NCBI RefSeq assembly: GCF_014697475.1
Contig: NZ_JACJRV010000069.1
Span: forward strand, 1-38,479
DNA: 38,479 bases
Direction: 5' to 3'
Source of the DNA: Nostoc sp. FACHB-152
GTDB lineage: Bacteria; Cyanobacteriota; Cyanobacteriia; Cyanobacteriales; Nostocaceae
In this document: piece by piece, positions 5,221 to 38,479 of the stretch
Layout: each line of letters begins with the position of its first letter
Numbering within the stretch: position 1 is the stretch's first letter
Position numbers and translations under genes: made by a program
Notes under the pieces: generated by a model
What the model saw: only the letters and a program-made list of their open reading frames with translations
What the model was told of the DNA's origin: nothing
Databases searched by the model: none

Positions 5221-5706
5221 TTACCATAATTTGATTAATTGCTTACTTTGTAGCCATAAATCAAACCTATGGATATCTTTTTCAGTTTCAAATGCAGCAA
5301 TTGGTAAGTAGTGAAATTGGGTTTTACTCATATATAAAAAGTAATAATCAGCTTTTTTTCTAACTTCAATAAATTGTTCGTATGTCATTTTAATGATACT
5401 GCCGTCTGCGTAATATAAACCAAAAAAATTTTCATCTATTTCGCAGTGTCTAGCTTGGAAGTTTAATGCAGATGTTTGCTTTTGGACTCTAAAAAATAAA
5501 GGTGCAGAGGCAGTATAAGCAAGTATTCCTAAAAAATATACCGCCCACCAGTCAAAGCGATTTTGCAGAATAGAAAATATAATACTCATCGTTGCTAATA
5601 TTGACAAAACAATGAAGTTGCGTTTTATCCGTCTGTAATATTCAACGGTCAAAACTGCACGTAATTCTTTGGGTGTGGTTTGAAAAGTTTTAGTTTTAAT
5701 TTGCAT
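5221..5706 (-). CDS. YcxB-like membrane protein
   Basis: A 161-residue protein. Two hydrophobic segments near the N-terminus (about residues 32-50 and 54-72) are followed by a soluble C-terminal domain that resembles the YcxB-like family (NFQARHCEIDENFFGLYY, then a conserved YLPIAAF near the end). The family has no firm biochemical role. It is most likely an inner-membrane protein with a cytoplasmic beta-rich domain. It converges on the preceding kinase with a gap of about 18 bp and no obvious shared terminator. Upstream, a 135-bp spacer holds a cyanobacterial repeat. The call rests on pattern resemblance. Confidence 0.65.
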   Translation of the reverse strand: MQIKTKTFQTTPKELRAVLTVEYYRRIKRNFIVLSILATMSIIFSILQNRFDWWAVYFLGILAYTASAPLFFRVQKQTSALNFQARHCEIDENFFGLYYADGSIIKMTYEQFIEVRKKADYYFLYMSKTQFHYLPIAAFETEKDIHRFDLWLQSKQLIKLW

Positions 5707-5732
5707 ACTATTTTTTTAATTGAATAATGTTT

Positions 5733-5781
5733 TTTAACGCAGAGGGGCGCGAAGGAAAGCGCAAAGGTACGCAGAGGTTTG
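5733..5781. repeat. Purine-rich GCAGAG interspersed repeat
   Basis: The spacer carries GCAGAG...GCGCAAAGG...ACGCAGAGG, a purine-rich motif that I recognise as a frequently repeated intergenic sequence in filamentous cyanobacteria. The origin of the repeat is not known to me. Confidence 0.4.
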
Positions 5782-5841
5782 CCTAATTTTATTAGCAATG
5801 TATTAAGTACCTCAGCAGATTAGGAAACGCTATATCCCCTG

Positions 5842-7464
5842 CTACACCACAGGTAACAACACTTGAGAACCCGCCTCGCCGCCGCAATTTATTGTCAAGG
5901 TGATGATTTGGGCATTAAATAAATCATCACTATTCATGACTGCGCTATTTCCAGAGTTCATCGCGTAGGCAGGAAAACAGGCTGCACTTAAACTTAAACG
6001 TAAGGCGTTACCTTTGGCAATGCGTACACAAGTGGTTTGTAATTGAATTTTTAGTGGCATTGAAGTTTGTTTTTGACAATGCAAATAACCTTGAGTCAAG
6101 TTAAATACACGCCCATCAAGATGCACTTGAGATAACACGGCACACAAATCATAACTAGGTTGATCGGCACTGCAATAAATTTCTACTATGACATCCCCTA
6201 GTAAATGTAAGTCTGCTGTTAGCGGTTGACTGGTGTAAGTTAAAACATCTGAACGGCAATCGATATGCGATCGCTCAAATACACCCGCAGGTATTCCCGC
6301 ATGACCACCCAAAGATGGCACTGGTCGCCAAGGGTCGTGAACTAAGACATCTTGGGGATTGGGGATTGGGGATTGGGGATTGGGGGTTAAGGTTCCTGAA
6401 TCTTCGCGGATGCTGGCAAGTCCAGTGGTTGACAAATAGTAAGATTTCTGATTTGCTATGTTTAAACTGGGGAAAGTGCGCCACATATTACTTCCCATCT
6501 CAAACAAGCAAATAGACGATTCTTGTAATAAGCCTGTATCTATATCTTTAAGAAACTGATCAAACCAGCGAATCTGCATCGCATCTACAGGACTGGCAGC
6601 TTTAGCACCAAAGTCAATTTCACCAACTTTCCGACCCCAAGGTAAATGCGCCCAAGCCCCAACTAATAAATGTTGCGGTGCAGTAAGCTGGGCTGCCATC
6701 TCTTGATATAAATGCAGTGTACCGCGCAGGTAAGTATCAAACCATCCCCCAATATGCAACATCGGCAAGTCTACATTTTGTAAGTGTTGTTTGGGTGATA
6801 GTTCTGACCAATAGCTATCGGGTTGAGGATGCGTTGCCCACTCGTGATAAAACGAATCAGGCGCAAGTTTATGGAGAATTTCGGGATTATTTACAGGTAA
6901 ATTGCGAGAAGCGGCAAATAATGCTTGATAAGCTGTTTTATCATCACGTAACCGCGCCGTTTCTGTGGCTAATTGAATTGCCCAAGCAAGATTAGTTTGT
7001 AAACAGAATGCACCACTTTCATACGCCCAATCTGTATATAAATCATAGCCAATCATGGCGGGGCAAATTGTTTTTAAGGCGGTAGGTTTCGCAGCCGCAG
7101 CGTATAGTTGTGTCATTCCTTGATAGGAAAAGCCATACATCCCGACTTTGCCATTACTTCCTGGTAGATGTGCTGCCCAATAAACGCTATCTTCACCATC
7201 AGCAATTTCATGGGCAAATAACTTAAACTCTCCCGCAGAAGTGCCGCGTCCGCGCACATCTTGAATCGCTACAATATAGCCGTGAGCAGCATACCAACTC
7301 GGATGAGCATACACCACAGTAGACGCGATCGCTCTACCATAAGGTTGTCGCATTAATAATATAGGAAAGTTTTCGGTTGCGTCAGGCCGATAGATATCCG
7401 CATCTAAGCGTATACCATCACGTGTATACATTGATGCAGTTTGTTTAGGCAGAACTTTGTACAT
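5842..7464 (-). CDS. CocE/NonD family (peptidase S15) serine hydrolase
   Basis: A 540-residue alpha/beta hydrolase of the X-Pro dipeptidyl-peptidase/CocE class, which cleaves acyl or peptide bonds with a Ser-Asp-His triad. The nucleophile is S113 in YGFSYQG. The N-terminal core carries QDVRGRGTSAGEF, typical of the family. GGWFDTYLRG and GAWAHLPWG are the usual acid and histidine regions. The C-terminal third (about 380-540) is a beta-sandwich X-Pro/CocE C-terminal domain. No signal peptide is seen, so it is probably cytoplasmic. The substrate cannot be inferred. Residues about 358-371 (PNPQSPIPNPQ) are encoded by a 7-bp tandem repeat inserted in frame just before the C-terminal domain, suggesting a tolerant linker. 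The ATG at 7464 starts MYKVLPKQTASM. Confidence 0.85.
   Translation of the reverse strand: MYKVLPKQTASMYTRDGIRLDADIYRPDATENFPILLMRQPYGRAIASTVVYAHPSWYAAHGYIVAIQDVRGRGTSAGEFKLFAHEIADGEDSVYWAAHLPGSNGKVGMYGFSYQGMTQLYAAAAKPTALKTICPAMIGYDLYTDWAYESGAFCLQTNLAWAIQLATETARLRDDKTAYQALFAASRNLPVNNPEILHKLAPDSFYHEWATHPQPDSYWSELSPKQHLQNVDLPMLHIGGWFDTYLRGTLHLYQEMAAQLTAPQHLLVGAWAHLPWGRKVGEIDFGAKAASPVDAMQIRWFDQFLKDIDTGLLQESSICLFEMGSNMWRTFPSLNIANQKSYYLSTTGLASIREDSGTLTPNPQSPIPNPQDVLVHDPWRPVPSLGGHAGIPAGVFERSHIDCRSDVLTYTSQPLTADLHLLGDVIVEIYCSADQPSYDLCAVLSQVHLDGRVFNLTQGYLHCQKQTSMPLKIQLQTTCVRIAKGNALRLSLSAACFPAYAMNSGNSAVMNSDDLFNAQIITLTINCGGEAGSQVLLPVV
6352..6386. repeat. TTGGGGA heptanucleotide tandem repeat inside hydrolase gene
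   Basis: Five consecutive 7-bp units (TTGGGGA, the last TTGGGGG) lie within the coding sequence. Because 35 bp is not a multiple of three, the frame must have been kept by the insertion as a whole. The repeat is translated on the reverse strand as a Pro/Asn-rich linker. Confidence 0.85.
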
Positions 7465-7766
7465 GAATGTGATGACAGAGTTTAATAAATAACTACAGAT
7501 GACAAAAATGTAACAAACAGCCAGCCGCTAGAATACAGTAAACAGGTTTAATTATTGAACACACTTGTGTAGGGAGGCAATAGGAAATAGGCAATAGGCA
7601 ATAGGCAATAGGGAATGGGGAATAGGCAATAGGGTAGGTAAAAGTGTACTGATTTTTTACTAATCAAATATGATTCTTAATATAAAGATGTGTAAATAAT
7701 TTTGTTTAAGTGCTTAAATATCAATGTTGAAATTGTGAATATATTGCCTGCATCAAGGAGGTTCAT
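7465..7766. repeat. Intergenic region with AATAGGC heptamer repeats (7576-7635)
   Basis: This is the divergent promoter region between the reverse-strand hydrolase and the forward kinase. At 7576-7635 a run of imperfect CAATAGG/AATAGGC heptamers matches the short tandemly repeated repetitive sequences of heterocystous cyanobacteria. No further gene is seen. Confidence 0.75.
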
Positions 7767-7769
7767 CTG
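7755..7769 (+). promoter_or_regulatory. Strong Shine-Dalgarno ahead of a possible CTG start
   Basis: AAGGAGG at 7755-7761 is a near-perfect Shine-Dalgarno sequence, but no ATG, GTG or TTG follows at the right spacing. The kinase reading frame is open back to here, and CTG at 7767 lies 5 nt downstream. The first conventional start, GTG 7830, has no Shine-Dalgarno of its own. Confidence 0.45.
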
Positions 7770-7829
7770 AGTAGCGATTGCCCAGAAATATTCAATTTAC
7801 AACAACAATTTTCTCCGCAGCAATCTCAT

Positions 7830-10800
7830 GTGGGCGATCAATCTACAGAAGAAAGGTTGACGGCAATCTTTGAAAACATGACTGAAGCGTTGATTGCGAT
7901 GGATACCTCATGGCGGGTTACATCTGTCAACAATAAAACAGAGCAGCTTTTGGGTAAAAACCGAGATAGTTTACTTGGTCAACTATTGTGGGATGTATTT
8001 CCGGTAGAGGCAACAATTCAGTTTGATCAGGCAATTACTGCACAATTTTCCCAAGAATTTGAGGAGTTTTATCCCAGCTTAAACCGTTGGTTAACAGTCC
8101 GGCTGATTGGGTGTGAAAACGGTATACTGGCATACTTACTCGATATTACAGCCAGAAAAGAATTAGAAACAACGCTGCGTCAAGAACAAAATTTTCTCAA
8201 CGTCTTGTTAGATAACGTCCAAGCCGGAATTGTGGCTTGTGATGCCCAAGGGCAATTAAAACTATTTAACCAAGCAGCACGAGCATTTCACGGATTACCT
8301 GAGCAACCCCTGCTACCAGAAAAATGGGCAGAACATTATGATTTGTATTTGCCCGATGGCAAAACACGGATGAACACAACCGATATCCCCTTGTATCGAG
8401 CATTGCAGGGGGAGCAGCTGAATAATGTTGAGATGATGATTGTACCGACGCAAGGAGTACCTCGCATTCTCTCGGCAAACGGTCAAGCAATTGTCGATGT
8501 CAATGGTGAGAAACATGGTGCTGTTGTCGTCATGCATGATATCACCGCTAGTAAGCAATCTGAAGAAGCACTCCGCAAAACTGAGCAACGCTACCGTTCA
8601 GTAGTAAACAATGTGAAAGACGTAATATTTCAAACTGATGCCGCAGGATTATGGACGTTTCTCAATCCTGCTTGGACAGAAATTACCGGATTTTCTATTG
8701 ATGAAAGTATCGGCACTAATTTTTTAGAATACGTGCATCCGAGCGATCGCCAATACAATTTAGAACTTTTTCAACCTTTAATTCAACGACAAAAAGATTT
8801 TTGTCGCCATGAAGTTCGTTATCTTACCAAAACCGGAGACTTTCGTTGGATTGAAGTATTCGCCCGTCTGACTTTAGATGATGAAGGCGCAATCCTGGGT
8901 ACTTCTGGAACCTTAAACGACATTACCGAACGCAAACAGGCTGAGGAAAAACGAGTCCAACTGATCCGCGAACAAGTAGCTCGTACTTTAGCAGAGACAG
9001 CGCAACAACAGGCAGCTTTTTTAGCAGAAGTTAGTGCCGTCCTCGGATCTTCGTTAGATTATGAACAAACTCTGAGGAGTGTGGCTAATTTAGCTGTCCC
9101 TTATTTTGCTGACTGGTGTAGTGTAGATTTGCTGAATGACGATCGCACTATTAGCCGTGTTGCTATTGCTCATTGTGACCCTCAAAAGGTGCAATTTGGC
9201 TGGGAACTGGCGCGAAGATATCCTAGGCATTTAAATGATGGCTATGGTATGTCTTTGGTGATGCAAACTGGCAAAAGTGAAATTGCCCCAGTCATCACTG
9301 ATGAGCAATTAAGTGCTGCTGTTCAAGATCCTGAATATTTGCAAATTTTACGCGGACTTGGCTTAAGTTCATGTATCATTGCACCTTTAATAGCCAGGGG
9401 AAGAGTGTTAGGCACGATTTCTTTTGTGTTTACCGAATCTCATCGTCACTACAGCAAAGTAGATTTAGCCCTGGCTGAAGATTTAGCGCGTCGAGCCGCG
9501 ATCGCAATTGATAATGCGCGTCTTTATCAACAAGCCCAACAAGCAAAAGAAGCCGCCGAAAAAGCCGCAGATCGCACAGTCCGTCTGCAAACCGTTACTG
9601 CCGCCCTATCACAATCTCTCACCCCTGTGCAAGTTGTGGATGTGATTGTGGAACAAAGTATGGCAGTATTAGAAGCCGCTTCTGCAATGGTAGTTTTGGT
9701 AAGTAAAGATCGCAAACAACTAGAAATTGTCAAAGCTGTCGGTTATGAAGCCGAATCGCTGGAATCTTGGCGACAGTTTCCTATTGATACTAATGTTCCC
9801 TTAGCAGAAGCCATCCGAACAGGTGAGCCAGTTTGGATGGAAACCTTAACAGATAGAATTAACCGCTATCCTCATCTGATTGAGTATTATAGCCGCTCTG
9901 AATACACCTCATGGATGTCGCTACCCTTGATGTTTGAAGGCAAAGCAGTGGGCGGAATCTCGCTAAATTTTAAACAGTTTAAGCAACTGAGCGCAGACGA
10001 TCGCGAATTTATTTTGGCCATTAGCCGTCAATGCGCCCAAGCAATTTCCCGCGCTCAATTGTATGAAGCAGAACGCCAAGCTAGAGCTAATGCAGAACAA
10101 GCAAACCGCGTCAAAGATGAGTTTTTGGCAGTACTTTCTCATGAGTTGCGATCGCCCCTCAATCCTATTTTAGGATGGACACAGCTACTGCAAAGCCAAA
10201 AATTGCCACCCACAAAAGTAACTCAAGCATTACAAACAATTGAACGCAACGCCAAACTGCAAGCACAACTAATTGAAGATTTGCTTGATATTTCGCGGAT
10301 GATGCAGGGCAAACTCAGCCTGAATATTGCCCCAATTAACTTAATATCAGTAATTGAGAATGCCATCGAAACGGTGCAGTTAGCGGCGGCGGCCAAATCT
10401 ATTGAGATTCAAACTGTCTTGCAACCCAACCACAATCAGACAGTCGGTGATGCTAATCGGTTGCAACAAGTTATCTGGAATTTGCTTTCTAACGCCATCA
10501 AGTTTACCCCAGAGGGCGGAAGAATCGAAATTAAGTTAGAGCAGCAAGGCAACCAAGTAAAAATTCAAGTAACCGATAATGGTAGAGGCATCAAACCAGA
10601 TTTTTTACCTTATGTGTTTGAATATTTTCGCCAAGCTGATAGTAGCACTACCCGGCAATTTGGTGGATTAGGGTTAGGGTTAGCGATTGTACGTCAGATT
10701 GTCGAATTACATGGTGGCACTGTGCAAGCACAAAGTCCCGGCGAAGATTTGGGAGCGACGTTTACTGTTTTGTTACCCACAACTCAACTGCGATCGCCTT

Positions 10801-11222: not shown

Positions 11223-11229
11223 AAGTCAT

Positions 11230-11397
11230 CAATACGTCAGTCTGTTATATCAATACATCGGTCTGTTATATCAATACATCGGTCTGTTATATCAATACGT
11301 CGGTCTGTTATATCAATACGTCGGTCTGTTATATCAATACGTCAGTCTGTTATATCAATACATCGGTCTGTTATATCAATACGTCGGTCTGTTATAT
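11230..11397. repeat. Eight tandem copies of a 21-bp unit
   Basis: Eight consecutive 21-bp units start at 11230, 11251, 11272, 11293, 11314, 11335, 11356 and 11377. Each reads CAATAC(G/A)TC(G/A)GTCTGTT followed by ATAT. A broken ninth unit starts at 11398. The array begins 8 bp after the kinase stop codon. Variation is confined to two positions. No long open frame crosses it. Confidence 0.95.
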
Positions 11398-11507
11398 CAA
11401 TACAAAGACGTGCCAGCGTTAACTCTATCTAATCTAAAAATTTTCTTACTGTTATTTTTTTTGTTGCAATGGGTACATTAAATATACAGATTACTACGTA
11501 ACTATTT

Positions 11508-27803: not shown

Positions 27804-29666
27804 ATGTGTGGAATCGTTGGGTATATCGGCACTCAAGCTGCAACAGAAATTTTACTGTCTGGTTTGGAAAAACTAGAGTATAGAGGCTACGATTCTGCGG
27901 GAATCGCCACAATTTGGGAAGGAGAAGTTAATTGTGTCAGGGCTAAAGGAAAACTGCATAACCTGCGTTCTAAACTCGAACAGCTAGAAAACCCTGCCCA
28001 AATAGGCATTGGTCATACTCGCTGGGCTACTCATGGTAAACCAGAAGAGTACAATGCCCATCCACACATGGATACAGCACTACGTATTGCGGTAGTTCAA
28101 AATGGCATTGTGGAAAACTACCGCGAGTTACGCGAAGAATTAAAACAAAAAGGACATAAGTTTCGTTCCGAAACTGATACAGAAGTAATTCCGCATTTAA
28201 TTGCTGAATTGTTAAAAAATCCTTCGTTAAATTTTTTAGAAGCAGTTCGTCAAGCTGCTAATAAACTAGAAGGTGCATTTGCGATCGCAGCTATTTGTGC
28301 TGACTATCCTGATGAATTAATTGTTGTCCGTCAACAAGCACCCTTAGTAATTGGCTTTGGACAGGGTGAATTTTTCTGTGCTTCCGATACCCCGGCGATC
28401 GTTGCTTATACCCGTGCAGTCCTACCCCTAGAAAACGGTGAAATTGCTCGTCTCACACCATTAGGTGTGGAAATTTATAACTTTGCTGGCGAAAGGTTGA
28501 AAAAACATCCCCGTTTGCTCAACTTGAGTCCCACGATGGTAGAAAAACAGGGATTCAAACACTTCATGCTCAAAGAAATTTACGAGCAACCAGGAGTGGT
28601 GAGAGCTAATTTAGAAGCTTACTTTCATAATTCTGGCGATGCTTCACCTGTTAACCTTGGCTTATCTGAATCACTTTACGCAGATTTAGAACAAATTCAC
28701 ATCGTCGCCTGTGGTACAAGTTGGCACGCTGCCTTAGTTGGCAAACACTTATTAGAACAATTAGCAGGAATTCCGACTCAGGTACACTACGCGTCTGAGT
28801 ATCGCTATGCACCATCACCTTTGACAGCTAATACATTAATTATTGGTGTTACTCAATCAGGTGAAACTGCCGATACCTTAGCAGCTTTAGCAATGGAAAA
28901 AGAACGCCGCCAAGGTCAAGAAGCGAAATATCAAGCGCGACTGTTAGGTATTACCAACCGCCCAGAAAGCAGCCTTGGTCATATGGTTCCCCATATTATC
29001 AGTACCTTAGCAGGGATAGAAATTGGTGTAGCAGCAACGAAGACATTTATTGCTCAATTAATGGCGTTTTATGCTTTAGCGTTAGATTTAGCTTATCGCC
29101 GTCAAACAGTTTCACAAGAAACTATAGAGAAAATTATTCATGGATTGCGCCACATTCCTCAAGAAATTGAAGAAACATTGGCAAGCCAGGAAAATTTAAC
29201 CGAACACCTAGCGCACGAATTTGCTGATACTCAAGACTTCATCTTTTTGGGTAGAGGAATTAACTTCCCCATTGCTTTAGAAGGGGCTTTGAAATTAAAA
29301 GAAATTAGTTACATTCACGCCGAAGGTTATCCGGCTGGGGAAATGAAACACGGCCCCATTGCACTGTTAGATGCGAAAGTTCCGGTGGTGGCGATCGCAG
29401 TTCCTGGTAGTGTCTATGAAAAGGTAATTTCTAACTCTCAAGAAGCCAAAGCCAGAGATTCGCGGTTAATTGGTGTTACGCCTGTGAAAGACGGCGAAGC
29501 AGCAGAAATTTTTAACGACTTGCTCCCTGTTTCATCAGTAGATGAATTACTATCACCCATCCTTACAGTTGTACCTTTGCAACTATTGGCTTATCACATT
29601 GCCGCCCGTCGCGGTTTAGATGTTGACCAGCCTCGGAACTTAGCAAAATCGGTGACTGTTGAGTAA
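27804..29666 (+). CDS. glmS: Glutamine-fructose-6-phosphate aminotransferase (isomerizing)
   Basis: A 620-residue cytosolic enzyme that makes glucosamine-6-phosphate from fructose-6-phosphate and glutamine, the first step to UDP-GlcNAc. The glutaminase domain starts MCGIVGYIG with nucleophile C2. GHTRWATHG and NGIVENYREL follow. Two SIS domains are present (IVACGTSWHAALVGKH, VTQSGETADTLAAL; FLGRGINFPIALEGALKLKE, HAEGYPAGEMKHGP). The C-terminal DQPRNLAKSVTVE is the part whose DNA is the TnsD recognition site in Tn7 relatives. Its stop is followed after 25 bp by a Tn7-like end, exactly the attTn7 spacing. Confidence 0.98.
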   Translation: MCGIVGYIGTQAATEILLSGLEKLEYRGYDSAGIATIWEGEVNCVRAKGKLHNLRSKLEQLENPAQIGIGHTRWATHGKPEEYNAHPHMDTALRIAVVQNGIVENYRELREELKQKGHKFRSETDTEVIPHLIAELLKNPSLNFLEAVRQAANKLEGAFAIAAICADYPDELIVVRQQAPLVIGFGQGEFFCASDTPAIVAYTRAVLPLENGEIARLTPLGVEIYNFAGERLKKHPRLLNLSPTMVEKQGFKHFMLKEIYEQPGVVRANLEAYFHNSGDASPVNLGLSESLYADLEQIHIVACGTSWHAALVGKHLLEQLAGIPTQVHYASEYRYAPSPLTANTLIIGVTQSGETADTLAALAMEKERRQGQEAKYQARLLGITNRPESSLGHMVPHIISTLAGIEIGVAATKTFIAQLMAFYALALDLAYRRQTVSQETIEKIIHGLRHIPQEIEETLASQENLTEHLAHEFADTQDFIFLGRGINFPIALEGALKLKEISYIHAEGYPAGEMKHGPIALLDAKVPVVAIAVPGSVYEKVISNSQEAKARDSRLIGVTPVKDGEAAEIFNDLLPVSSVDELLSPILTVVPLQLLAYHIAARRGLDVDQPRNLAKSVTVE

Positions 29667-29686: not shown

Positions 29687-29691
29687 AACAT
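29687..29691. other. Candidate 5-bp target-site duplication (left copy)
   Basis: AACAT precedes the TGTACAAC transposon tip. Tn7-like insertion duplicates 5 bp. The partner copy would lie at the distal end of the element, outside the window, so this is a prediction. Confidence 0.5.
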
Positions 29692-29762
29692 TGTACAACA
29701 ATAAAAAAGTCGTATAACAAATAAAAAAGTTATACAATATATAAAAAAGTTGTACAATTTAT
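29692..29762. mobile_element. Tn7-like transposon end (glmS-proximal, R-type) with TnsB repeats
   Basis: The tip is TGTACAACA at 29692. Three units with an exact 20-bp period follow: ACAACAATAAAAAAGT, TAACAAATAAAAAAGT and CAATATATAAAAAAGT, ending at 29710, 29730 and 29750. A final TGTACAATTTAT repeats the start of the unit. This is the expected look of TnsB-binding sites. The tip is 25 bp after the glmS stop codon, and tnsA is transcribed away from glmS, as at the Tn7 right end. Confidence 0.85.
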
Positions 29763-29794
29763 CCTGTAGGTGTATCTGCAAGCATCTACAGGAG
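29763..29794 (+). promoter_or_regulatory. tnsA: Hairpin overlapping the tnsA ribosome site
   Basis: CCTGTAGGTG (29763-29772) and CATCTACAGG (29783-29792) pair over 10 positions with one G-T pair and a 10-nt loop. The second arm includes AGG of the tnsA Shine-Dalgarno AGGAG (29790-29794), so folding of a transcript that starts upstream would hide it. Confidence 0.5.
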
Positions 29795-29799
29795 TTTTT

Positions 29800-30618
29800 A
29801 TGGCTAAAAGCAAACAAGATTGGACGCAAGCCAAGTTTGAGCGTTATTGTAAGGAAGGCCGAGGTCAGGGTAGTGGCAAAGGCTATAAGCCGTGGATAAA
29901 GATTCAGGACTTTCCCTCAAGGGGTCGTGTCTCCAGACCAGCAGGTTGGAAAACAAACCGAGAACATCATCTTTTTTCCGATAACGAGAAGCGACTGTTT
30001 TATGTATTTGAGTGGTCAGATGCGATCATAGATATAAGAGAACAGTTTCCTCTAATTGAGCTTGACTTAGCAATGAGTATCGCGGATGAAATGGGTATTA
30101 ACTATCCCAAAGACCCGCAAAGCAATACGCCCCGTGTTTTAACTACCGATTTTATGCTTTCTGTCAAGCAAGATAAGAATATAGTTCAGAAAGCACGAAC
30201 ATTTAAACTAACCAAGGATTTGGGAAGTAAGTCGGTAGCTGAAAATTTTGAATTAGAAAAACGTTACTTTGCTGCCAAAGGTATTGATTGGGGAATAATC
30301 ACGGAAAAAGAAGTCCCTAAGCAATTAGCTGAGAATGTTGAATGGATTCATACTGCTTATAAATTAGAAGGAAATGCAGATATAAATATTGAAGAATTAC
30401 GTAACATCGCAAATATTTTAAAGTTTAGACTTCAGGAAAGTGATGCAAGTATCAATAAAATAACGACGGATTTAGACAAGGATATGAATATGGAGTCTGG
30501 CACGTCTCTTTATCTTTTTAGACACCTTATTGCTCGGAAAGAAATCATTATGGATATGCTGGCAACTAAAATATCTAGTTGTCCCTCTTCTAAAGAAATT
30601 CAAAAAATAATTTTTTAG
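29800..30618 (+). CDS. tnsA: Tn7-like transposition endonuclease TnsA
   Basis: A 272-residue protein, almost exactly the size of Tn7 TnsA (273). In the TnsAB transposase it cuts the 5' ends of the element, so that excision is cut-and-paste rather than replicative. The PD-(D/E)xK core is visible: E63 (DNEKRLFYVFEWSD), D117 (VLTTDFML) and K136 (ARTFKLTKDL). Residues 145-272 form the C-terminal winged-helix region that contacts TnsC. ATG 29800 follows AGGAG; an upstream in-frame start (29770) lies in the hairpin and is less likely. It is the first gene of tnsA-tnsB-tnsC, 22 bp before tnsB. Confidence 0.93.
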   Translation: MAKSKQDWTQAKFERYCKEGRGQGSGKGYKPWIKIQDFPSRGRVSRPAGWKTNREHHLFSDNEKRLFYVFEWSDAIIDIREQFPLIELDLAMSIADEMGINYPKDPQSNTPRVLTTDFMLSVKQDKNIVQKARTFKLTKDLGSKSVAENFELEKRYFAAKGIDWGIITEKEVPKQLAENVEWIHTAYKLEGNADINIEELRNIANILKFRLQESDASINKITTDLDKDMNMESGTSLYLFRHLIARKEIIMDMLATKISSCPSSKEIQKIIF

Positions 30619-30640
30619 AAGATAGGACGAGGTACTTTGT

Positions 30641-32875
30641 ATGATTCATGATTTGTTTGTAAATGACCTGATTGAATGGATTGATGAATCAGGCAATAAT
30701 TTTATAGAACGAGTTCTCTGGATTGATGAAGGATATATTATTGCTTTTGTTTATGATATAAACGCTAAAACAGGATTTCCAGAGGCTAAAAAAGTTTCAG
30801 AGATTAGAGAGGCTATTTCTGATGGTCATGCCTTGAAGCTTAAATCAGACCCGTGGGCAAGAATAGTAAGAGATGAAGATTTATCACCAAAGGAAAAAAA
30901 ACTTAGAGATAGGGCTTGGCAAATAATTTCATTTATCGTTACTCAAGAACCCTCAATATACTATCGGGACTATAGAGGTACTTTAGTTCAACAGGTTCTC
31001 GAAAAATATAATGCAGGTAGAACTGAAGGTGAATTAGTACCAATAACTGTTTATAAATATTTAAGAAGATTTTGGCAGAGGGGTAAAAATAAGAATGCTC
31101 TCTTGCCTGATTATGCAAATTCTGGTGGTAAAGGAAAGCCTAAAATTTCTGGAGATAAGAAAAGGGGAAGACCAAGAAAATACGCACAAGTTCCAGAAAT
31201 TGGTATTGGAAGAAATGTTACAGAAGAAGATAAAAGAATATTTAGATTTGCAATTGCTAAATTCTATAATAATTCCAAAAAAAATTTTTTAACAACTGCT
31301 TATGATTTAATGATTAAGGAATATTACTCTGAAGATTTTTATTACGATGAAAATGGAGTAAAGAAATGTATTTTAATTCCTCCAGATAAACGACCTACAT
31401 TTACCCAATTTAAATACTGGTACGAAGTAGAGCAAACTGATATTAGAAAAACTATTATATCTCGTAAGGGTTCGAGAAAATATGCTTTAGAAAATCGAGC
31501 CATTACCGGAACTTCTCAAATGGAAACTATTGGGCCAGGGTCTAGATATCAAATTGATGCTACGATCGCAGACGTATATTTAGTATCTATTTACAACCCC
31601 AACTGGATTATTGGTAGACCTGTTATATATGTGGTGATTGATGTTTTTAGTCGCATGATAACAGGGGTTTACGTTGGATTAGAAGGGCCATCTTGGACAG
31701 GAGCAATGATGGCTTTAGCCAATGCAGCCGCAGATAAGGTGAAGTTTTGCCAAGAATATGGTATTGAGATTTCTGAAGATGAGTGGCCATGCAGGCATAT
31801 TCCTGATGCCATTTTGGGAGACCGAGGTGAATTAGCAGGGATGAATGTAGAAACATTAATCCCTAATTTAGATGTTCGTATTGAAAATGCTGCTCCCTAT
31901 CGAGCAGATTGGAAAGGATTAGTAGAAAGACAATTTCGTACTATTCATGGGTATGTAAAACCATTTGTTCCTGGTTATATAGATACTGACTTTAGACAGA
32001 GGGGAGGACATGATTATCGCCTTGACGGTAGGCTTAACATAAATGAATTTACTAAAATAGTTATATTTTTGATTCTCCAGCATAATAATCATGATTATTT
32101 AAATAATTATGCTAGAGATGAAATGATGATTACTGATGATGTTAATCCTATACCTAGAGAATTGTGGCAATGGGGAATTGCTAATCGTTCCGGTAGACTG
32201 AGAACATTTCCAGAAGATATTGTGAAGCTGAATTTAATGCCAACCGGAAAAGCAACAGTTACCGCTCGTGGTATTAAATTTAAAGGAATGTACTACACTT
32301 GCGAGAAGGCAAGGAAAGAATTTTGGTTTGAAAAATCTAGAAGTAGTTTATTATCTAAATCCGAGAAATCGTTGGATATATCATATGATATTCGACAGCC
32401 GAACTTTATTTATTTACGTTCTCCAAACGGTAGAGATTTTGAAAAATGTTGGCTTTTGGAATCACAACAAAGATATTTAGATAAAAACTTTTATGACATT
32501 GATTACTTATTAGCATATGAAAAATTGCAAAGTCAAAAAAATCAAGGTACTCGATTACAAGCAAAAGCTGATTTGATAGCAAATATAGAAAGTATAGTTA
32601 GTCAGGCTAAAGAAGAGACTAAAGCAGTTTTAGATGATACTCTAAGTGATAGACAAAAGGTTAGTGGTATTCGACAAAATAGAGCAGATGAAAAAAATAA
32701 TCGACGTAAAAATGAATCATTTGAACTAACAAAAGCAGAAACTCCCAATGCTGATAATGCTAAGAATCAGATAAGCACTCAAACTGAAGATTCAGAGGAT
32801 TCAAAACTATTACAGCCTGATCATATGGATTTACTCAAACGGAAAAGAAAGGAGCGTAAACGTGGGCAGGAATGA
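30641..32875 (+). CDS. tnsB: Tn7-like DDE transposase TnsB
   Basis: A 744-residue Mu/Tn7-family transposase that binds the transposon ends, cuts the 3' strands and joins them to the target. The integrase core is intact: D306 (SRYQIDATIADV), D394 (ILGDRGELAG) and E429 (WKGLVERQFRTIH), with VVIDVFSRMITGVYVG between. An N-terminal region with helix-turn-helix DNA-binding domains precedes (about 90-280). A beta-barrel region and a charged, Lys-rich tail that would contact TnsC follow. It overlaps tnsC by 14 bp, consistent with coupled translation. Low GC and codon use match the rest of the element. Confidence 0.95.
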   Translation: MIHDLFVNDLIEWIDESGNNFIERVLWIDEGYIIAFVYDINAKTGFPEAKKVSEIREAISDGHALKLKSDPWARIVRDEDLSPKEKKLRDRAWQIISFIVTQEPSIYYRDYRGTLVQQVLEKYNAGRTEGELVPITVYKYLRRFWQRGKNKNALLPDYANSGGKGKPKISGDKKRGRPRKYAQVPEIGIGRNVTEEDKRIFRFAIAKFYNNSKKNFLTTAYDLMIKEYYSEDFYYDENGVKKCILIPPDKRPTFTQFKYWYEVEQTDIRKTIISRKGSRKYALENRAITGTSQMETIGPGSRYQIDATIADVYLVSIYNPNWIIGRPVIYVVIDVFSRMITGVYVGLEGPSWTGAMMALANAAADKVKFCQEYGIEISEDEWPCRHIPDAILGDRGELAGMNVETLIPNLDVRIENAAPYRADWKGLVERQFRTIHGYVKPFVPGYIDTDFRQRGGHDYRLDGRLNINEFTKIVIFLILQHNNHDYLNNYARDEMMITDDVNPIPRELWQWGIANRSGRLRTFPEDIVKLNLMPTGKATVTARGIKFKGMYYTCEKARKEFWFEKSRSSLLSKSEKSLDISYDIRQPNFIYLRSPNGRDFEKCWLLESQQRYLDKNFYDIDYLLAYEKLQSQKNQGTRLQAKADLIANIESIVSQAKEETKAVLDDTLSDRQKVSGIRQNRADEKNNRRKNESFELTKAETPNADNAKNQISTQTEDSEDSKLLQPDHMDLLKRKRKERKRGQE

Positions 32876-34226
32876 GAAAAAAGTTGTTAGTATTCCTAAT
32901 GGAGAATTAGCAGTTATTGCCAGATATATAGATCAAAAACTTCCAGAATACAACACTAATCCATTAATTCAGGCATTACCTCCTATCTTATCAGCAGAAG
33001 AATTTATTGATAAAGTAACGAGAACACCAGATTTTGATGAACAAGAGAGGGAGCTAGAAGCGCATTATAGGTTTCATTGCATTGAGAGGCTATCTAGATA
33101 CTTTGATCCTCAAAATAAAACGGTTGAACTACAGAAGGTTATTTGTGCATTAATTATGACGGGCTATTTAGCTCGGAATATTTTGAAACCTGAATATGCA
33201 AGTCGTTCTAGGCAAATCTATAACGCAATCAAAGATGGCGGAGGTAAAAACTTAGAAAACTATGTTAATCTTCCTACATCTGCTTCTGGTTTAACCCTAA
33301 TTGGCCCATCAGGGATGGGAAAATCTACAAATTTCCAAAATATTCTTAATCTTTATCCTCAAGTAATTCTTCATCCTGAGTATAGTGTTTACCAAATCGT
33401 TTGGTTGAAGGTTGACTGCCCTCATGCGGGTTCTTTGAAGGGTCTGTGTACTGATATTTTTCTTGCTGTTGACAGGCTATTAGGTACTAACTACTTTAAA
33501 AAATTTGGTTCCTCGCGCAACTCTGAAGATTATATGTTGGCTCAAGTTGCCCAAATTGCCCATACTCATCATTTAGGGGTTTTAGTTATAGATGAAATGC
33601 AGAATCTAGTTACAGCAAGAAGAAGTAGCTCAGATATGTTGAACTTTTTAGTAAAAATGGACAATACTGTAGGGATTCCAGTAATTCGAGTTGGTACAAA
33701 CGAGGCTTTTCCTATTCTTCAAGGAAATTTTAGAAATGCTAGGAGAGGTACAGGAGAAGGTAGTGTAATTTGGGACAGAATGGTAAATGATGATGAATGG
33801 TATTTCTTCATGGAAGGAATGTGGGATTACCAATGGACAAAAACACCTGTCCCTTTCTCCGATGAAATAAACGAAGTTTTTTACGACGAAAGCCAGGGAA
33901 TCATTGATATTGCTGTTAAACTTTACAAAATGGTGCAATGGAGAGCGATTTCAATTGGTGGTAAAGAAATTATTACTACTGAGCTAATTCGCCGAGCAGC
34001 TAAAGACGGGCTATATTTAGTCAAGCCAATGCTAGATGCAATTAGGTCAGGGGACAAGGAATGGATGATTAAGTATAAAGATATTGCTGATCTCGATACG
34101 ACAGAATATCACAATAAATGTCTATCTGAGCTTGAGTCTAACGATTTGAAAGATATTCGCAGATTAGCTAGAAAGCAACAGAATCAGCAGAAAGTACTCG
34201 CCGAAGCTCAATCATGTAATTCTTGA
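32862..34226 (+). CDS. tnsC: Tn7-like AAA+ regulator TnsC (frameshifted C-terminus)
   Basis: A 454-residue AAA+ ATPase that links target selector (TniQ/TnsD) to TnsAB by forming filaments on DNA. Walker A is GPSGMGKS with K154, Walker B is VLVIDEMQ with D244-E245, and a sensor-type VIRVGTNEAF follows. The start is GTG 32862 with AAAGGAG upstream, overlapping tnsB. The frame stops at 34226 (AEAQSCNS), but the +1 frame continues without a stop from 34168 and reads into the next 100-residue frame. The joined product would be about 556 residues, the size of E. coli TnsC (555). A late indel is therefore likely; the ATPase core is unharmed, but the C-terminal contact region is lost. Confidence 0.92.
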   Translation: MGRNEKKVVSIPNGELAVIARYIDQKLPEYNTNPLIQALPPILSAEEFIDKVTRTPDFDEQERELEAHYRFHCIERLSRYFDPQNKTVELQKVICALIMTGYLARNILKPEYASRSRQIYNAIKDGGGKNLENYVNLPTSASGLTLIGPSGMGKSTNFQNILNLYPQVILHPEYSVYQIVWLKVDCPHAGSLKGLCTDIFLAVDRLLGTNYFKKFGSSRNSEDYMLAQVAQIAHTHHLGVLVIDEMQNLVTARRSSSDMLNFLVKMDNTVGIPVIRVGTNEAFPILQGNFRNARRGTGEGSVIWDRMVNDDEWYFFMEGMWDYQWTKTPVPFSDEINEVFYDESQGIIDIAVKLYKMVQWRAISIGGKEIITTELIRRAAKDGLYLVKPMLDAIRSGDKEWMIKYKDIADLDTTEYHNKCLSELESNDLKDIRRLARKQQNQQKVLAEAQSCNS

Positions 34227-34230
34227 GCTT

Positions 34231-34533
34231 TTGAACTTGGAAGTAGAACCTGCTAAAGCAAAGGAATGTGCAGAACAAATTTTTTATAGTGATGAAGATG
34301 CAGATATTCCATCTTTAGTTAAGAAGGCATATGCTCTCGCTTTGCAAGGGGGTCAAGTAAATGAGAGCCTTACTAAAACAAGTATCAAGAAAGCTAAATC
34401 AAAGCCAAAGTACCAAGAGAATGATATTCGACGAATTGTCGAGAATGCAAAGAAAGAGAAAAAATCGGCATATGAGGATTTGAAATTAGCAGGTATAATC
34501 AAAAACCCAGTTGAAGATTTTATAAATATTTAA
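34231..34533 (+). pseudogene. Detached C-terminal segment of TnsC
   Basis: About 100 codons in the frame +1 to tnsC. Upstream in the same frame the reading continues as HVILELLNLEVEPAKAKECAE, with no start codon of its own except TTG 34231, and then a helical, Lys-rich sequence ending GIIKNPVEDFINI. This resembles a C-terminal domain tail, not an independent protein. Joined to tnsC it restores the usual TnsC length. It could be a separate small protein if translated from TTG, but no ribosome site is seen. Confidence 0.65.
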
Positions 34534-34540
34534 ATGCTCA

Positions 34541-35491
34541 ATGCTTAGTTTTTTCCCAACTCTGTATCCCGATGAACTGTTATATAGCACTTTAGCTAGA
34601 TACCACATTCGGAGTGGAAATAAAAGTTTCAAGCAAACTGACTTAGAGCTATTTGGTTACAGTTCTCAACAAATATGCAAAATTACTTTAACTAATAATT
34701 TAAATTATTTAGTAAAAAACTTCCCTTTACGCTCCCAGCAAAAAGTTGAAAACTTACTACAAAATCATACACTATATCCCTTTTATGCAACTTTTTTAAT
34801 GCCACAGGAGGCTTGGCTACTAAAGAATTCAATGAGTAAAAAACTCAGTGGCTCTATACTAGATGTTGCTAAAGTTGCTACTAATTCTAGTAGTGATTCA
34901 AAAAAATTTTAAAAATTTTGTCCTGACTGTTTAGAAAAAGATACCCAAAAGTATGGTGAACCATACTGGCATAGAATACATCAAGTTCCTGGCATTTTAG
35001 TTTGTCCAATTCATAGTGTCCTTTTACAGGATAGTTGTGTACAAGTTGAATCGAAAGGCATATATTATCATGCTGCCAGCATAGATAATTGCTTATTAAC
35101 AAATAATGTAAAAAATTTGACAAATAACACTGTAACAACACTTTTAACACTGGCAAATGATATTAATTGGCTAATTCATTGCAATTTTGCCTTTCAAGGT
35201 TTGGCTTGGCTTCGCGCTCAGTACCAGCGTTACTTAGTGGATAAAGGATTGCTAAAAATCTCTCTTGGTGGCAAGTTTAACTTTGATGAGTATGGTTTTG
35301 CCCAGCTTATATTTGAGTTTTATGGTCAAGAATCCTTAGATGTCCTCAATCCAAAGTTGGCCCAAAATCAAGGTAAATATTTTTCTCACTGCTTGTTTGG
35401 ATGCGACCTAAACCCAGCAATTGACCGCATAACTCATATCTTAATGATAAAATTTTTAGCAGATTCTATAGAAGAGTTTTTTCAGTCATGA
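34541..35491 (+). pseudogene. tniQ: TniQ/TnsD-family target selector, interrupted by one in-frame TAA
   Basis: The single frame 34541-35491 encodes about 316 residues, with one stop at codon 124 (TAA 34910-34912). The N-terminus FFPTLYPDELLYSTLARYHIR and the YPFYATF region match E. coli TnsD. Directly after the stop comes the zinc-binding module FCPDC...YGEPYWHRIHQVPGILVCPIH. Then come LRAQYQRYLVDKGL and a C-terminal SLDVLNPKLAQNQ that aligns with TnsD near residue 290. The C-terminal DNA-binding half of TnsD is absent, so size fits TniQ of an RNA-guided route better. A Tyr codon (TAT/TAC) turned TAA would explain the stop. The gene follows tnsC and precedes cas6. Confidence 0.85.
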
Positions 35492-35728
35492 TCTTCATTT
35501 AAAAGTTTTAAAGAAATTAATAAAAAGCAATAATAACTAATCAAAATTATTGTTGTTGGTTATTATTTTAAATATTTTCAGATTAGTGAATCAGGTAATC
35601 TAAGTAATACGGTAGTTATTCAATACCTGTTTGCATCTGCTTAGATCTGTCATATAAAAATGATTGTTGATAGGAATTTACTTACGCAGACTCCCTCAGA
35701 AACATCTTCAAAGCCAAAAGAGCTTTTA
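35492..35728. other. AT-rich gap before cas6
   Basis: About 240 bp of AT-rich DNA separating the tns block from the cas block; probably the cas promoter. The cas6 frame is open from ATG 35660, within this gap, and that start cannot be excluded. Confidence 0.5.
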
Positions 35729-36352
35729 ATGTCTCAGTTTCCATATATAGATTTAACTTTTAGCCTTATTGGTGAGACATTACCTTTTGACCACGGCTAT
35801 GAATTATTTTCTGCGATCGCCCACTTTGAACCAAAACTTCATAAATTAGACACAATGGGAATTCATACCATTGCAGGTATTCCCAAGAATGGGGTGATTA
35901 ATCTGACCCAAAATTCTAGGCTTCGTATTCGGATACCAGTAAATCAGGTACGTTTGGTTTACCCATTAGCAGGCAAATCCTTGAGAATTGGCAAGCATAC
36001 AATTCGTTTAGGTATTCCTGACATATGTTTGCTTCAACCTGCGGAGCAATTGCGATCGCGCATCGTAATCATCAGGGGCTATGCAGAGCCGACGGGGTTT
36101 TTAGCAGTAGCAAAACGCCAGCTTGAAAAACTTGGAATCCAAGGAATGGCTGCTATCCAGCAAAAAGCTGACGGTAGAGTAAAACATAGAACTATCAAAG
36201 TTCACGATTCTACGCTTGTCGGCTTTTCGCTCAATGTGACAAATCTCAGTGATGAGGATTCGCTGGTATTGCAGATGTACGGCATTGGGGGTAAGCGCAA
36301 AATGGGTTGTGGATTGTTTGTACCTATGCAAGAACAGCTAACTAACAATTAA
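35729..36352 (+). CDS. cas6: Cas6 CRISPR RNA endonuclease (I-MYXAN/Cmx6 type)
   Basis: A 207-residue protein from ATG 35729 (MSQFPYIDL), or 230 from ATG 35660. Cas6 cuts the CRISPR transcript inside each repeat and stays on the 3' hairpin. It shows two ferredoxin-like halves. IPVNQVRLVYPLAGKSLRIG is typical of the Myxan subgroup. The C-terminal glycine-rich loop GIGGKRKMGCGLFVP is the Cas6 RNA-binding signature. It is the first gene of cas6-(cas8/cas7 remnant)-cas5 and appears intact. Its natural substrate would be the array at 37494. Confidence 0.85.
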   Translation: MSQFPYIDLTFSLIGETLPFDHGYELFSAIAHFEPKLHKLDTMGIHTIAGIPKNGVINLTQNSRLRIRIPVNQVRLVYPLAGKSLRIGKHTIRLGIPDICLLQPAEQLRSRIVIIRGYAEPTGFLAVAKRQLEKLGIQGMAAIQQKADGRVKHRTIKVHDSTLVGFSLNVTNLSDEDSLVLQMYGIGGKRKMGCGLFVPMQEQLTNN

Positions 36353-36365
36353 AAATCCCTGCAAT

Positions 36366-36584
36366 ATGCCAAGGATTGCTAGTCAGGTCACTCCGAAAAT
36401 TCATCTAACCATAACTCAGCCCACCACAACTTTATTGCATCGTGCAGGGATGGCTGGGCTTTGGATGACACTCAAGCAACTGGAAAACTTGGGTGTAAAG
36501 GTTTTTCCTGGAGTCAAGGAAACAGTACAAAATTTAAAGAAGGTTATAGCTAAAGATTTGATGTTATCAAGGAAGCGTTCTTGA
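36366..36584 (+). pseudogene. Chimeric remnant: Cas8 N-terminus joined to Cas7 C-terminus
   Basis: A 72-residue frame between cas6 and cas5. Residues 1-44 (TPKIHLTITQPTTTLLHRAGMAGLWMTLKQ in part) carry the LLHRAGMAGL block of Cmx8/Cas8a1-type large subunits. Residues 45-72 (FPGVKETVQNLKKVIAKDL) look like the end of a Cas7/DevR-type backbone protein. Type I-B CASTs usually have the order cas6-cas8-cas7-cas5, so one internal deletion of about 2.5 kb, leaving an in-frame fusion near 36480-36510, would produce it. Cascade could not form on target without Cas7. The Cas7 assignment of the tail is inference. Confidence 0.65.
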
Positions 36585-36585
36585 A

Positions 36586-37218
36586 ATGACAAGAGTAGCA
36601 TTGAAAGTTGAGGTTCCCATAGCTTCCTTTCGTAAGTCTCGCGCTAGGGAATACATCGAAACTTACCCCGTACCACCACCATCAACAGTGTACGGAATGT
36701 TACTGTCTCTTATTGGGGAGGTTGATAGATATAAGCATTGTGGGGTGAAACTGGCGATCGCACTTCTATCTGAACCAGAAAAGTCAACTGTCATTCGCTC
36801 TATTCACCGATTTAAAACGAAGAATATCTGTGACCCTAAAAATAATAAACCTGATTACCAGGAGTTACTAACTAATATTGAGTTTGTGGTTTGGGTGGAT
36901 ACTGGCGTAGATACAGCTAAACCAAATTTAGTGCAACGTTTACAACAAGCATTTACTAACCCAACTTCTGTTCATCGTTTTGGTGGACTGTGTTTAGGTG
37001 AAAGCCGGGACTTGGTGAATGATATTACTCTTTTACCTGAAAATTACTGTGCAGAATCAATGCGATGGTTAATTCGTGATGAATATGGGTTACTCACTTT
37101 ACCTTACTGGGTAGACCATGTAGGTTCAAGAGGAACACGATGGCTGCGTTACGAGATTCAGGAATGTCAAGTATTTCAACCACCAGAATTATCTTGGACT
37201 TTGGTTCAAAGTGATTAG
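36586..37218 (+). CDS. cas5: Cas5 (I-MYXAN/Cmx5, DevS type)
   Basis: A 210-residue RAMP-fold protein that caps the 5' handle of the crRNA in type I Cascade. The N-terminal Cas5 signature VEVPIASFRKSRAREYIETYPVPPPSTVYGMLLSL is complete. VHRFGGLCLGESRDLV is a second typical block, as is PYWVDH near the end. The ATG is 1 bp after the remnant's TGA, so translation is coupled. Length is close to normal and no damage is seen. With Cas7 and Cas8 missing from this locus, its function would depend on a second system. Confidence 0.85.
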   Translation: MTRVALKVEVPIASFRKSRAREYIETYPVPPPSTVYGMLLSLIGEVDRYKHCGVKLAIALLSEPEKSTVIRSIHRFKTKNICDPKNNKPDYQELLTNIEFVVWVDTGVDTAKPNLVQRLQQAFTNPTSVHRFGGLCLGESRDLVNDITLLPENYCAESMRWLIRDEYGLLTLPYWVDHVGSRGTRWLRYEIQECQVFQPPELSWTLVQSD

Positions 37219-37493
37219 AGGTATCTTAACTTTTGCAAGCACCTCTGCTTGGGAAATTTAAATGCTATCAAAAGTAGTTTTACTTTCTTATTTTACGAGC
37301 CTTTTAGGGATTTTATATGCTTCCAAGGTGCTTGCAACTTCCTAGAATGCTTTAAATATAAGGGTTAGCAGTTTTAACAACTTCGTTTTTGCTGTGAATA
37401 GCTATTAATTTTTGCAACTTGGCTAACCTTAAATAGTAGATGCTTGTAAAATTCATGTAGAGCTTAGGCAAGTCAATAAATATGGCTATCGCT
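37219..37493 (+). promoter_or_regulatory. Probable CRISPR leader
   Basis: 275 bp of AT-rich DNA with T-runs (TTTTACTTTCTTATTTTA) between cas5 and the first repeat on the same strand. Its location and composition fit a leader and promoter for the array. A pair AGGGTTAGCAG and TTGGCTAACCTT within it can fold. No gene. Confidence 0.55.
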
Positions 37494-37815
37494 GTGCTTT
37501 AGCATTAGATGTCGTTAGGCGTTGAGCAGGTTACTTTGCAAGCGCAAGACCCGCCTCCCACGAATTAGTGCTTTAGCATTAGATGTCGTTAGGCGTTGAG
37601 CAGGGCGTAGTTAAGCTAATGGCTTTTGATGAAGATTGTGCTTTAGCATTAGATGTCGTTAGGCGTTGAGCAGTTGCCTTGAATTACAGTAAAGTTTGCA
37701 CCTACAGCCGTGCTTTAGCATTAGATGTCGTTAGGCGTTGAGCAGCTTGATGGAGACAAATCATTAATAGTAAAGTTGGGTGCTTTACCATTAGATGTCG
37801 TTAGGCGTTGAGCAG
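37494..37815 (+). CRISPR. CRISPR array: five 36-bp repeats, four internal spacers
   Basis: Repeats at 37494-37529, 37568-37603, 37638-37673, 37710-37745 and 37780-37815. The repeat starts GTGCTTTAGCATTAGATG and ends TCGTTAGGCGTTGAGCAG. The first four are identical; the fifth has one change (G to C at position 9). Spacers are 38, 34, 36 and 34 nt. The start GTGCT and end AGCAG form a near-palindrome. If Cas6 cuts 8 nt from the end, the crRNA handle is TTGAGCAG. cas1 and cas2 are absent nearby, so it was not obviously acquiring spacers here. Confidence 0.97.
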
Positions 37816-37886
37816 GTAGAGATAGTGCCGTTATTCGTACATCCAGATTTGGGATTTGTCATGAAATGTCTTTAGGCGTTATTGGC
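37816..37886 (+). CRISPR. Terminal spacer and degenerate sixth repeat
   Basis: A 35-nt fifth spacer (37816-37850) follows the variant repeat. At 37851-37886 a degraded repeat aligns in register: 23 of 36 positions match overall and 17 of 20 in repeat positions 11-30 (ATGTCTTTAGGCGTT), while the last six match none. The distance is exactly one spacer length, so it is a true end-of-array repeat. It resembles the atypical or delocalised guides of some CASTs. Confidence 0.85.
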
Positions 37887-37919
37887 TTAGATATAAATAA
37901 GTTTTCTCTGAAGACAAGA

Positions 37920-38314
37920 TTAGCGATCTTGAGTATCTTCATTCCGGTAAATTTTGGCGATTATTTTTTCCCATTGCTCAATTTGGTTCTGTAGTTGTAA
38001 TCGCCGATCGCTCAAATCTTGACTATCATCAACAGACACATCCTGACCGCTTAATCGTTCATGATAAATAGCAATCAGTTCGGTTAGGGCTTTTTTATTG
38101 CTTGCTGATCCTCCTGGGTCAGAGAACTCACATTGACTGGAATCAGCTTTCTGCCAATTCTCTCCACAAATTCAGACCGACTTAAATCCATGCTGTCGGC
38201 GATCACATCTAATCCTTCAATCCCGGTAGGAGTTAGGGCTAGGTTAACTCGTTTCTTCACCTCATCGTACAGTTCTGGTACGTCTTTTTGACCTTTTTGC
38301 CCTTTCTTACCCAT
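37920..38314 (-). CDS. Ribbon-helix-helix-like cargo protein, with candidate -1 frameshift
   Basis: The zero frame encodes 76 residues. It starts MGKKGQKGQKDVPELYDE and has the pattern RVNLALTPTGIEGLDVIADSMDLSRSEFVERIGR, which resembles a ribbon-helix-helix DNA-binding motif often seen in cyanobacterial accessory proteins. It ends AIKKP. At 38091-38096 the coding strand reads A AAA AAG, phased as a slippery heptamer. In the -1 frame the reading continues for 55 more residues (ALTELIAIYHERLSGQD, then a Gln/Glu-rich helix) to TAA at 37920-37922, giving about 131 residues. It opposes the array. A homopolymer indel would look the same. Confidence 0.6.
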
Positions 38315-38479
38315 TGCTGTCTAGTTTTTACATCCCTCCCAATCATAGTAAACACATTCAGCACTTTAAGTTAAACATTACAGCAGTTTCCTGTGTTATG
38401 AGGTACAGTAACAGCAATTAGTAAACCAGTTTCTTAAATGTTGAGGATTCATTAAGTTGAGTGCAACTGAGATAACTGT
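38315..38479. other. Window edge, nothing recognised
   Basis: 165 bp upstream of the cargo gene. It should hold that gene's promoter. I looked here for a distal Tn7-like end and saw none. Confidence 0.4.

Follow-up and report, generated by a model that had tools for sequence, protein, structure and literature searches.

The window analysed here is the whole of contig C157 (38,479 bp) of the Nostoc sp. FACHB-152 genome (G000; 8.6 Mb in 190 contigs). From position 29692 onwards it carries a Tn7-like transposon with genes associated with clustered regularly interspaced short palindromic repeats (CRISPR), inserted downstream of glmS. For comparison we used 18 related loci obtained by a TnsC search of genome_contigs; the counts below cover the stretch fetched for each locus. 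Two of them serve as references: L002, an I-B1-type element of Nostoc parmelioides FACHB-3921 with the same gene order as the window, and L012, a Nostoc carneum locus.

The host gene glmS, taken from the open reading frame (ORF) call, lies at 27804–29666 on the plus strand, and its 3′ end marks the attTn7 site. GlmS gave one match at E ≤ 1e-150 per genome in 11/11 same-genus genomes, its own included, and the gene directly precedes tnsA, within about 220 bp upstream, in 12 of the 18 related loci. The initial annotation had placed a Tn7-like end 25 bp after glmS, and this was confirmed: with the glmS stop at 29666, the end (TGTACAAC...) begins at 29692. This glmS-proximal end (29692–29759, plus strand) holds three TnsB-type sites of about 20 bp at 29701, 29721 and 29741, which resemble the sites in the relatives' ends. 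The spacing from glmS stop to end is 25–26 bp in the window, L002, L004, L014 and L047; the stop was not located by the search pattern in six other loci, three of which (L003, L006 and L007) have no GlmS match. The AACAT at 29687–29691 is a candidate for the left half of a 5-bp target-site duplication. Its second copy and the distal end fall outside the window, the contig stopping at 38479 inside an insertion sequence (IS). Tn7-like ends directly after glmS were also seen in two congeners, G003 (L045:224) and G010 (L048:8814, minus strand). None of nine tns/cas proteins matched in the approximately 9 kb fetched there, and these ends are possibly tns-less derivatives or relics.

The first two transposition genes are open. 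tnsA (29770–30618, plus strand) matches Pfam TnsA_N and TnsA_C and the TnsA of Tn7 (1t0f, E 1.1e-41), and tnsB (30641–32875, plus strand) matches Mu-transpos_C and the TnsB of Tn7 (7pik, E 7.7e-117), with 93% identity to L002. The alignments show that the acidic residues of the transposase core in TnsB and the E, D and K positions in TnsA are kept, which we take to be the catalytic residues. By sequence, the nearest solved structures of TnsA, TnsB and TnsC (1t0f, 7pik and 8glu) are all Tn7's own proteins.

The next two genes are broken. tnsC is a single 556-aa frame in L002 and L012 and is split in two in the window. Its first piece (32862–34226, plus strand; 454 aa; AAA_22/TniB; Tn7 TnsC E 6.4e-80) ends after a frameshift near 34197, and an open frame of 100 aa (34231–34533, plus strand) matches residues 441–556 of the L002 TnsC as a detached C-terminal piece. 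Near 34197 the window is one base longer than L001, L002 and L012, the nearer three of the five aligned relatives; L003 and L014 are too diverged there for a base-by-base comparison, yet their tnsC is open. tniQ (34541–35491, plus strand) contains an in-frame stop at 34910–34912, and TniQ and partial TnsD Pfam matches fall on its two pieces. The gene is open at this position in 4/4 aligned relatives (L001, L002, L012 and L014), and the open L002 TniQ is nearest to Tn7 TnsD (8glu) among solved structures. The tnsC and the TniQ/TnsD-family gene announced by the initial annotation are thus present, each interrupted.

The main lesion lies among the cas genes. cas6 (35660–36352, plus strand) is an open frame of the type I-MYXAN Cmx6 family (TIGR02807, 267.9 bits, cut-off 98.85), and cas5 (36586–37218, plus strand), of the Cmx5/DevS family (TIGR02586, 152.7 bits, cut-off 111.5), is open as well; the nearest solved structure to its product is 8fcj from a Peltigera membranacea cyanobiont (E 3.5e-71). 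Between them, only a 72-aa ORF (36366–36584, plus strand) is left of cas8 and cas7. In it the first ~45 residues of Cas8 are fused to the C-terminal ~33 of Cas7, as judged by the matches. The distance between the start of cas8 and the end of cas7 is 219 bp in the window against 2,569 bp in L002, so that about 2.35 kb has been deleted. The Cas8 and Cas7 alignments to L002 share 8 bp at 36480–36487, within which the junction lies; the overlap is shorter against L012 and L005. A brief overlap of this sort is what one would expect where a deletion has joined two sequences. The scar reaches 31.4 bits against the I-MYXAN Cas8 model, under the cut-off of 80.85. The L002 Cas8 passes this model and the L002 Cas7 passes a type I-B Cas7 model; the same Cas8 is nearest to the Cas8 of 8fcj, and its residues 383–498 match the separate Cas11 chain. 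Such a cas8-cas7 fusion was found in 0/9 related loci with Cas7 matches. When the L002 Cas8 and Cas7 were searched against the whole FACHB-152 genome at E up to 1, the scar alone was returned.

A profile scan with Pfam and TIGRFAM-type models covered ten window ORFs and, among antisense ORFs, the one at 38084–38314 only. Within that scope neither tnsE nor any of the Cas1, Cas2 and Cas3 families gave a match, in agreement with the annotated lack of cas1, cas2 and cas3. Two further cas loci were seen elsewhere. In the same genome, C171 carries at 326–572 (L038) a 247-bp cas6 relic, 89% identical to the window cas6, with phosphate-transport-like genes nearby as read by eye. In a congener, a cas6 sits with an 820-aa frame and a Cas8-like frame at L087:2388–7001 (G007:C212), in what looks to be an ordinary, non-transposon immune locus of the same Cas family.

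The CRISPR array (37494–37886, plus strand) comprises five 36-bp repeats at 37494–37815 with one mismatch in total, a sixth, degenerate repeat at 37851–37886 with 13 mismatches, and five spacers of 34–38 bp. Profiles, Tn7 structures and repeat detection together bear out the annotated set of tnsA, tnsB, cas6, cas5 and array on one strand. No other site of the genome carries the repeat within 3 mismatches. Against plasmids, spacer 1 matched seven Sphingobium records over 68% of its length at E 0.4, and spacer 2 matched 13 records over 65% at best E 0.9, both at chance level; the latter fall mostly in a conjugative transfer gene (Providencia, Proteus), with one Calothrix plasmid. Spacers 3–5 had no plasmid match. 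The five spacer patterns, with every sixth base left free, gave 0 matches in viral_contigs, and, the array itself excepted, matches of the spacers to the fetched loci never exceeded 14 bp. In two other hosts, the last spacer before the degenerate repeat is shared at 92.5% over 40 bp (L005:17281–17320 and L014:17354–17393). It may be an old spacer common to both, or else a dedicated guide; no target was found for it, and a match of 13 bp to L047 and L048, close to the glmS side of those stretches (E 0.24), is taken as chance. In the Nostoc carneum array, the sole spacer between the two repeats detected (L012:17123–17158) is a near-palindrome (AGGCCCAAGTTGGGCCT).

The array is followed by a conserved stretch (37887–38378) which lies between array and tnsD in relatives and matches L002, L005, L014 and L001 at the same place. 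It includes the small minus-strand ORF at 38084–38314, which is ribbon-helix-helix (RHH)-like, with a weak RHH_1 match under the cut-off. We had considered that the DNA after the array might be host DNA, with the distal half of the element deleted into the host, as first suggested by the match of 37948–38322 to 375 bp near glmS in G007. This was rejected because the same stretch trails the array in L001, L002, L005 and L014. The G007 copy (L041:4423–4797, 94%) stands alone near glmS, with no transposon end seen there, and is possibly the footprint of a lost element.

The last stretch of the contig, 38379–38479, is the beginning (~100 bp) of an IS630-type insertion that is present in many copies. 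This IS end is common to ten other contigs of the genome, always at a contig end: it terminates C7, C72, C83, C84, C103, C116, C133, C137 and C169, with the last 95 bp identical in 9/9, and it stands at the start of C71. Related IS copies in G010 (L060) and G028 (L064) adjoin frames with IS630 helix-turn-helix or DDE_3 domains. In L002, homology with the window runs to 18190, and tnsD starts at 18408 or, with an earlier start, at 18300. As the homology ends just before tnsD, this gene would be expected just past the end of our contig. Searched against the whole genome at E up to 1, the L002 TnsD matched tniQ; the only other matches, at E 0.2 and 0.6, are at chance level.

We then looked for the distal end in the rest of the genome. 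Nine sites fitted the near-end pattern with up to 3 mismatches, of which only the window's own end was exact; the reversed control gave six, which puts the other matches at chance level. A right-end pattern drawn by eye from L007 and L046 had one match, C112:2614–2638, with 3 mismatches, and none in its control. We rejected this site as the distal partner: the adjacent 5 bp are ACAAT and not AACAT, and the match abuts a relic of another element (a left end and 47 aa of TnsA). Moreover, three congeners (G005, G008 and G003) have glmS and the neighbouring pdxA on one contig, and the two genes are respectively 0.30, 3.45 and 2.41 Mb apart there in contig coordinates. A stricter right-end pattern had no match in L006, L007 or L046, whose right ends were read by eye. 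C173, which carries mfd (adjoining glmS in G009), was checked as downstream flank and no link was shown.

C112 also holds, at 2600–9700 (L084), a second and different Tn7-like element. It has a 904-aa frame resembling a fused TnsA-TnsB (TnsB match E 1.8e-8) and TnsC-like and TniQ-like frames, all read by eye, and adjoins the relic mentioned above, an I-B1-type left end with 47 aa of TnsA that abuts the right-end-like sequence.

Our results lead us to conclude, with high confidence, that the window carries a degenerate type I-B1 CRISPR-associated transposon (CAST) of the Tn7-like kind at attTn7 downstream of glmS. The copy descends from an I-B1 member and is not a complete one: of the I-B1 Cascade set cas6-cas8-cas7-cas5, it has cas6 and cas5, and cas8 and cas7 only as the 72-aa scar. 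The initial annotation was therefore right about a type I-B CAST at this site, now narrowed to I-B1; it missed the cas8-cas7 deletion and the degenerate state of the copy. It took the element as resident, with a TniQ and a tnsD to be looked for further on. Given the loss of cas8 and cas7, the breaks in tniQ and tnsC and the absence of a tnsD match in the assembly, neither guide targeting by TniQ nor homing by TnsD seems available to this copy.

According to the family literature, the ancestor would have had two routes to a target. In one, TnsD would recognise the end of glmS; in the other, TniQ with a complex of Cas6, Cas8, Cas7, Cas5 and CRISPR RNA would recognise DNA matching the guide. TnsC would have joined either route to the TnsA and TnsB transposase. 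With Cas7 gone, and Cas8 too (including the Cas11 part within its gene), the guide complex is not expected to form. As cas8 and cas7 are lost, tniQ is cut short and tnsD was not found, neither route seems to be present, and TnsC has lost its C-terminal part. Judging by its genes, the copy is most likely unable to select a target or to move unaided, and is most likely a stranded relic. Another I-B1 element might still mobilise it in trans, since tnsA, tnsB and the near end seem undamaged.

Several observations weigh against this interpretation. tnsA, tnsB, cas6 and cas5 are open, with low dN/dS against L002 (0.16–0.23), as if constrained until recently. The single-base lesions, in an assembly of 190 contigs, could be sequencing errors, and tnsD could sit in an unassembled gap. 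Finally, some I-B1 elements are reported without tnsD in PMC11406308. One might thus argue that an intact I-B1 CAST resides here and that its lesions are artefacts of sequencing or assembly, as the fragmentation of the assembly, the single-base nature of the tnsC and tniQ lesions and the four open genes would allow. We find this very improbable: there are four separate lesions in 9 kb, including a 2.35-kb loss with a clean junction, and missing genes that were merely misplaced should match another contig, which none did. Sequencing error would account less readily for the 2.35-kb deletion and the IS.

We further calculated pairs of nonsynonymous and synonymous divergence (dN/dS) by the simple Nei-Gojobori method, against L002 for all genes except tnsC, which was compared to L012; these values average both lineages, and the age of a lesion cannot be dated from them. 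The pairs were 0.038/0.222 for tnsA, 0.032/0.181 for tnsB, 0.142/0.614 for cas6 and 0.072/0.46 for cas5. For tniQ they were 0.024/0.312 in the 5′ piece and 0.073/0.153 in the 3′ piece (ratios 0.08 and 0.48), and for tnsC 0.040/0.205 in the 5′ part and 0.066/0.185 in the 3′ piece (ratios 0.20 and 0.36). The higher values 3′ of the tniQ and tnsC lesions (192 and 100 codons) point weakly to relaxed constraint. They bear on another explanation, that the copy is a reduced derivative still in use. TnsA, TnsB and its ends would then be retained for carriage in trans by a related element; alternatively, Cas6 and Cas5 would be retained with the array for some other purpose such as lending guides to another effector. 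The open, low-dN/dS tnsA, tnsB, cas6 and cas5 and the near-uniform array, with one mismatch across its five repeats, would agree with this. However, the genome gave no other match to Cas8 or Cas7 of this Cas family, no second site with the repeat and a single TnsC match, and with this weak sign of relaxed constraint beyond the lesions we hold such continued use to be most doubtful.

The degenerate I-B1 element stands among relatives in varied states. The full order tnsA-tnsB-tnsC-tniQ-cas6-cas8-cas7-cas5-array-tnsD with all nine genes open was found in 3/18 loci (L001, L002 and L014). L004 has eight open genes and a tnsD open up to the end of the fetched stretch; L003 and L016 have eight open genes and no tnsD within the stretch. 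At least one tns or cas gene is split, shortened or missing in nine of the 18 (L005, L006, L008, L009, L011, L012, L013, L015 and L017), so damage is not rare; several are draft or metagenome contigs, and errors or contig ends may explain part of it. As to whether tns and cas blocks occur apart in relatives, the result was mixed: cas matches lie beside the tns genes in 12/18 loci, and six (L006, L007, L010, L011, L017 and L018) have no cas match in the fetched stretch, some being cut by contig ends. L006 (6822–13191) and L007 (6823–13187) have tnsA, tnsB, tnsC and one TnsD-like gene, tnsA and tnsB being split in L006. With a right-end-like sequence about 6.4 kb past the left end, both resemble short, cas-less elements related to the I-B1 CASTs.

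Among the related loci, L002 is nearest to the window in tnsA and tnsB (92–93%) and in tniQ (88%), with a very similar near end, and in the TnsB tree the window groups with L002 and L047 of G006 with 100/100 support. In 300-bp steps, identity to L002 is 90–97% across tnsA and tnsB. Within tnsC, between about 32,990 and 34,190, it is 77–85% to L002 versus 91–96% to L012, and past tnsC it returns to 89–94% to L002 through tniQ and the start of cas6. The window TnsC is nearest to L012 (93%), and tnsC is 79% identical to L002. This patch probably reflects recombination that swapped TnsC between lineages and made the element a mosaic; since the TnsC tree leaves the window in an unresolved fork, the case for exchange rests on the identity profile. 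An L012-like tnsC amid L002-like tnsA and tnsB gives a slight hint that exchange of TnsC can occur. One could go further and picture a non-autonomous I-B1 CAST that has shed its targeting parts, relies on incoming relatives and swaps partners through recombination at tnsC, which we regard as a long shot.

Other repeats in the window are a 21-bp tandem repeat at 11228–11403 (8.4 copies, 95% matches) and heptamer repeats at 4182, 6352 and 7575. The own-genome search with TnsC gave one match only.

For anyone surveying CASTs, a locus that combines tns genes with cas6, cas5 and an array need not be a working system. The loss of cas8 and cas7 leaves a locus that seems complete at a glance, and recognising it keeps a broken element off the list of CAST candidates. 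Decay has been met in another type: PMC9938897 mentions twelve degenerated Cas12k proteins of V-K CASTs that were left out, so CAST decay was already known there. PMC8649781 puts the number of minimal I-B systems carried by Tn7-like transposons of cyanobacteria at nine, and also mentions transposons that have single CRISPR-Cas components. At the level of titles and abstract openings, where a paper on this genome could be missed, we found no report of an I-B1 CAST with cas8 and cas7 lost.

Among known systems, gene content, site and nearest solved relatives place the element with the I-B1 CASTs of the AvCAST/Tn7743 kind. In PMC11406308, type I-B1 is described as close to Tn7, natural only in cyanobacteria and using TnsD at glmS, with a TniQ that evolved from a truncated TnsD and is coupled to a type I-B Cascade. 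The window shares with these CASTs separate tnsA and tnsB of the Tn7 kind, the glmS site, type I-B cas genes, an array, a cyanobacterial host, a short tniQ with a partial TnsD domain and no cas1 or cas2 seen. It differs in having no working cas8 or cas7, a broken tniQ and tnsC and no tnsD found, whereas cas8, cas7 and tnsD are open in L002; AvCAST itself was compared through that description. To the I-B2 CASTs (PmcCAST, Tn7744) the element is linked by its Cas5 and by the L002 Cas8, both related to chains of 8fcj. That group has a fused TnsA-TnsB and a tRNA-gene site according to PMC11406308, in contrast to the separate ORFs at 29770–30618 and 30641–32875 and the glmS site in the window. To those of Tn7, TnsA, TnsB and TnsC are homologous along most of each protein, and Tn7 likewise inserts just after glmS; the window differs from it in its cas genes and array and, among the ten ORFs scanned, in the lack of a tnsE match.

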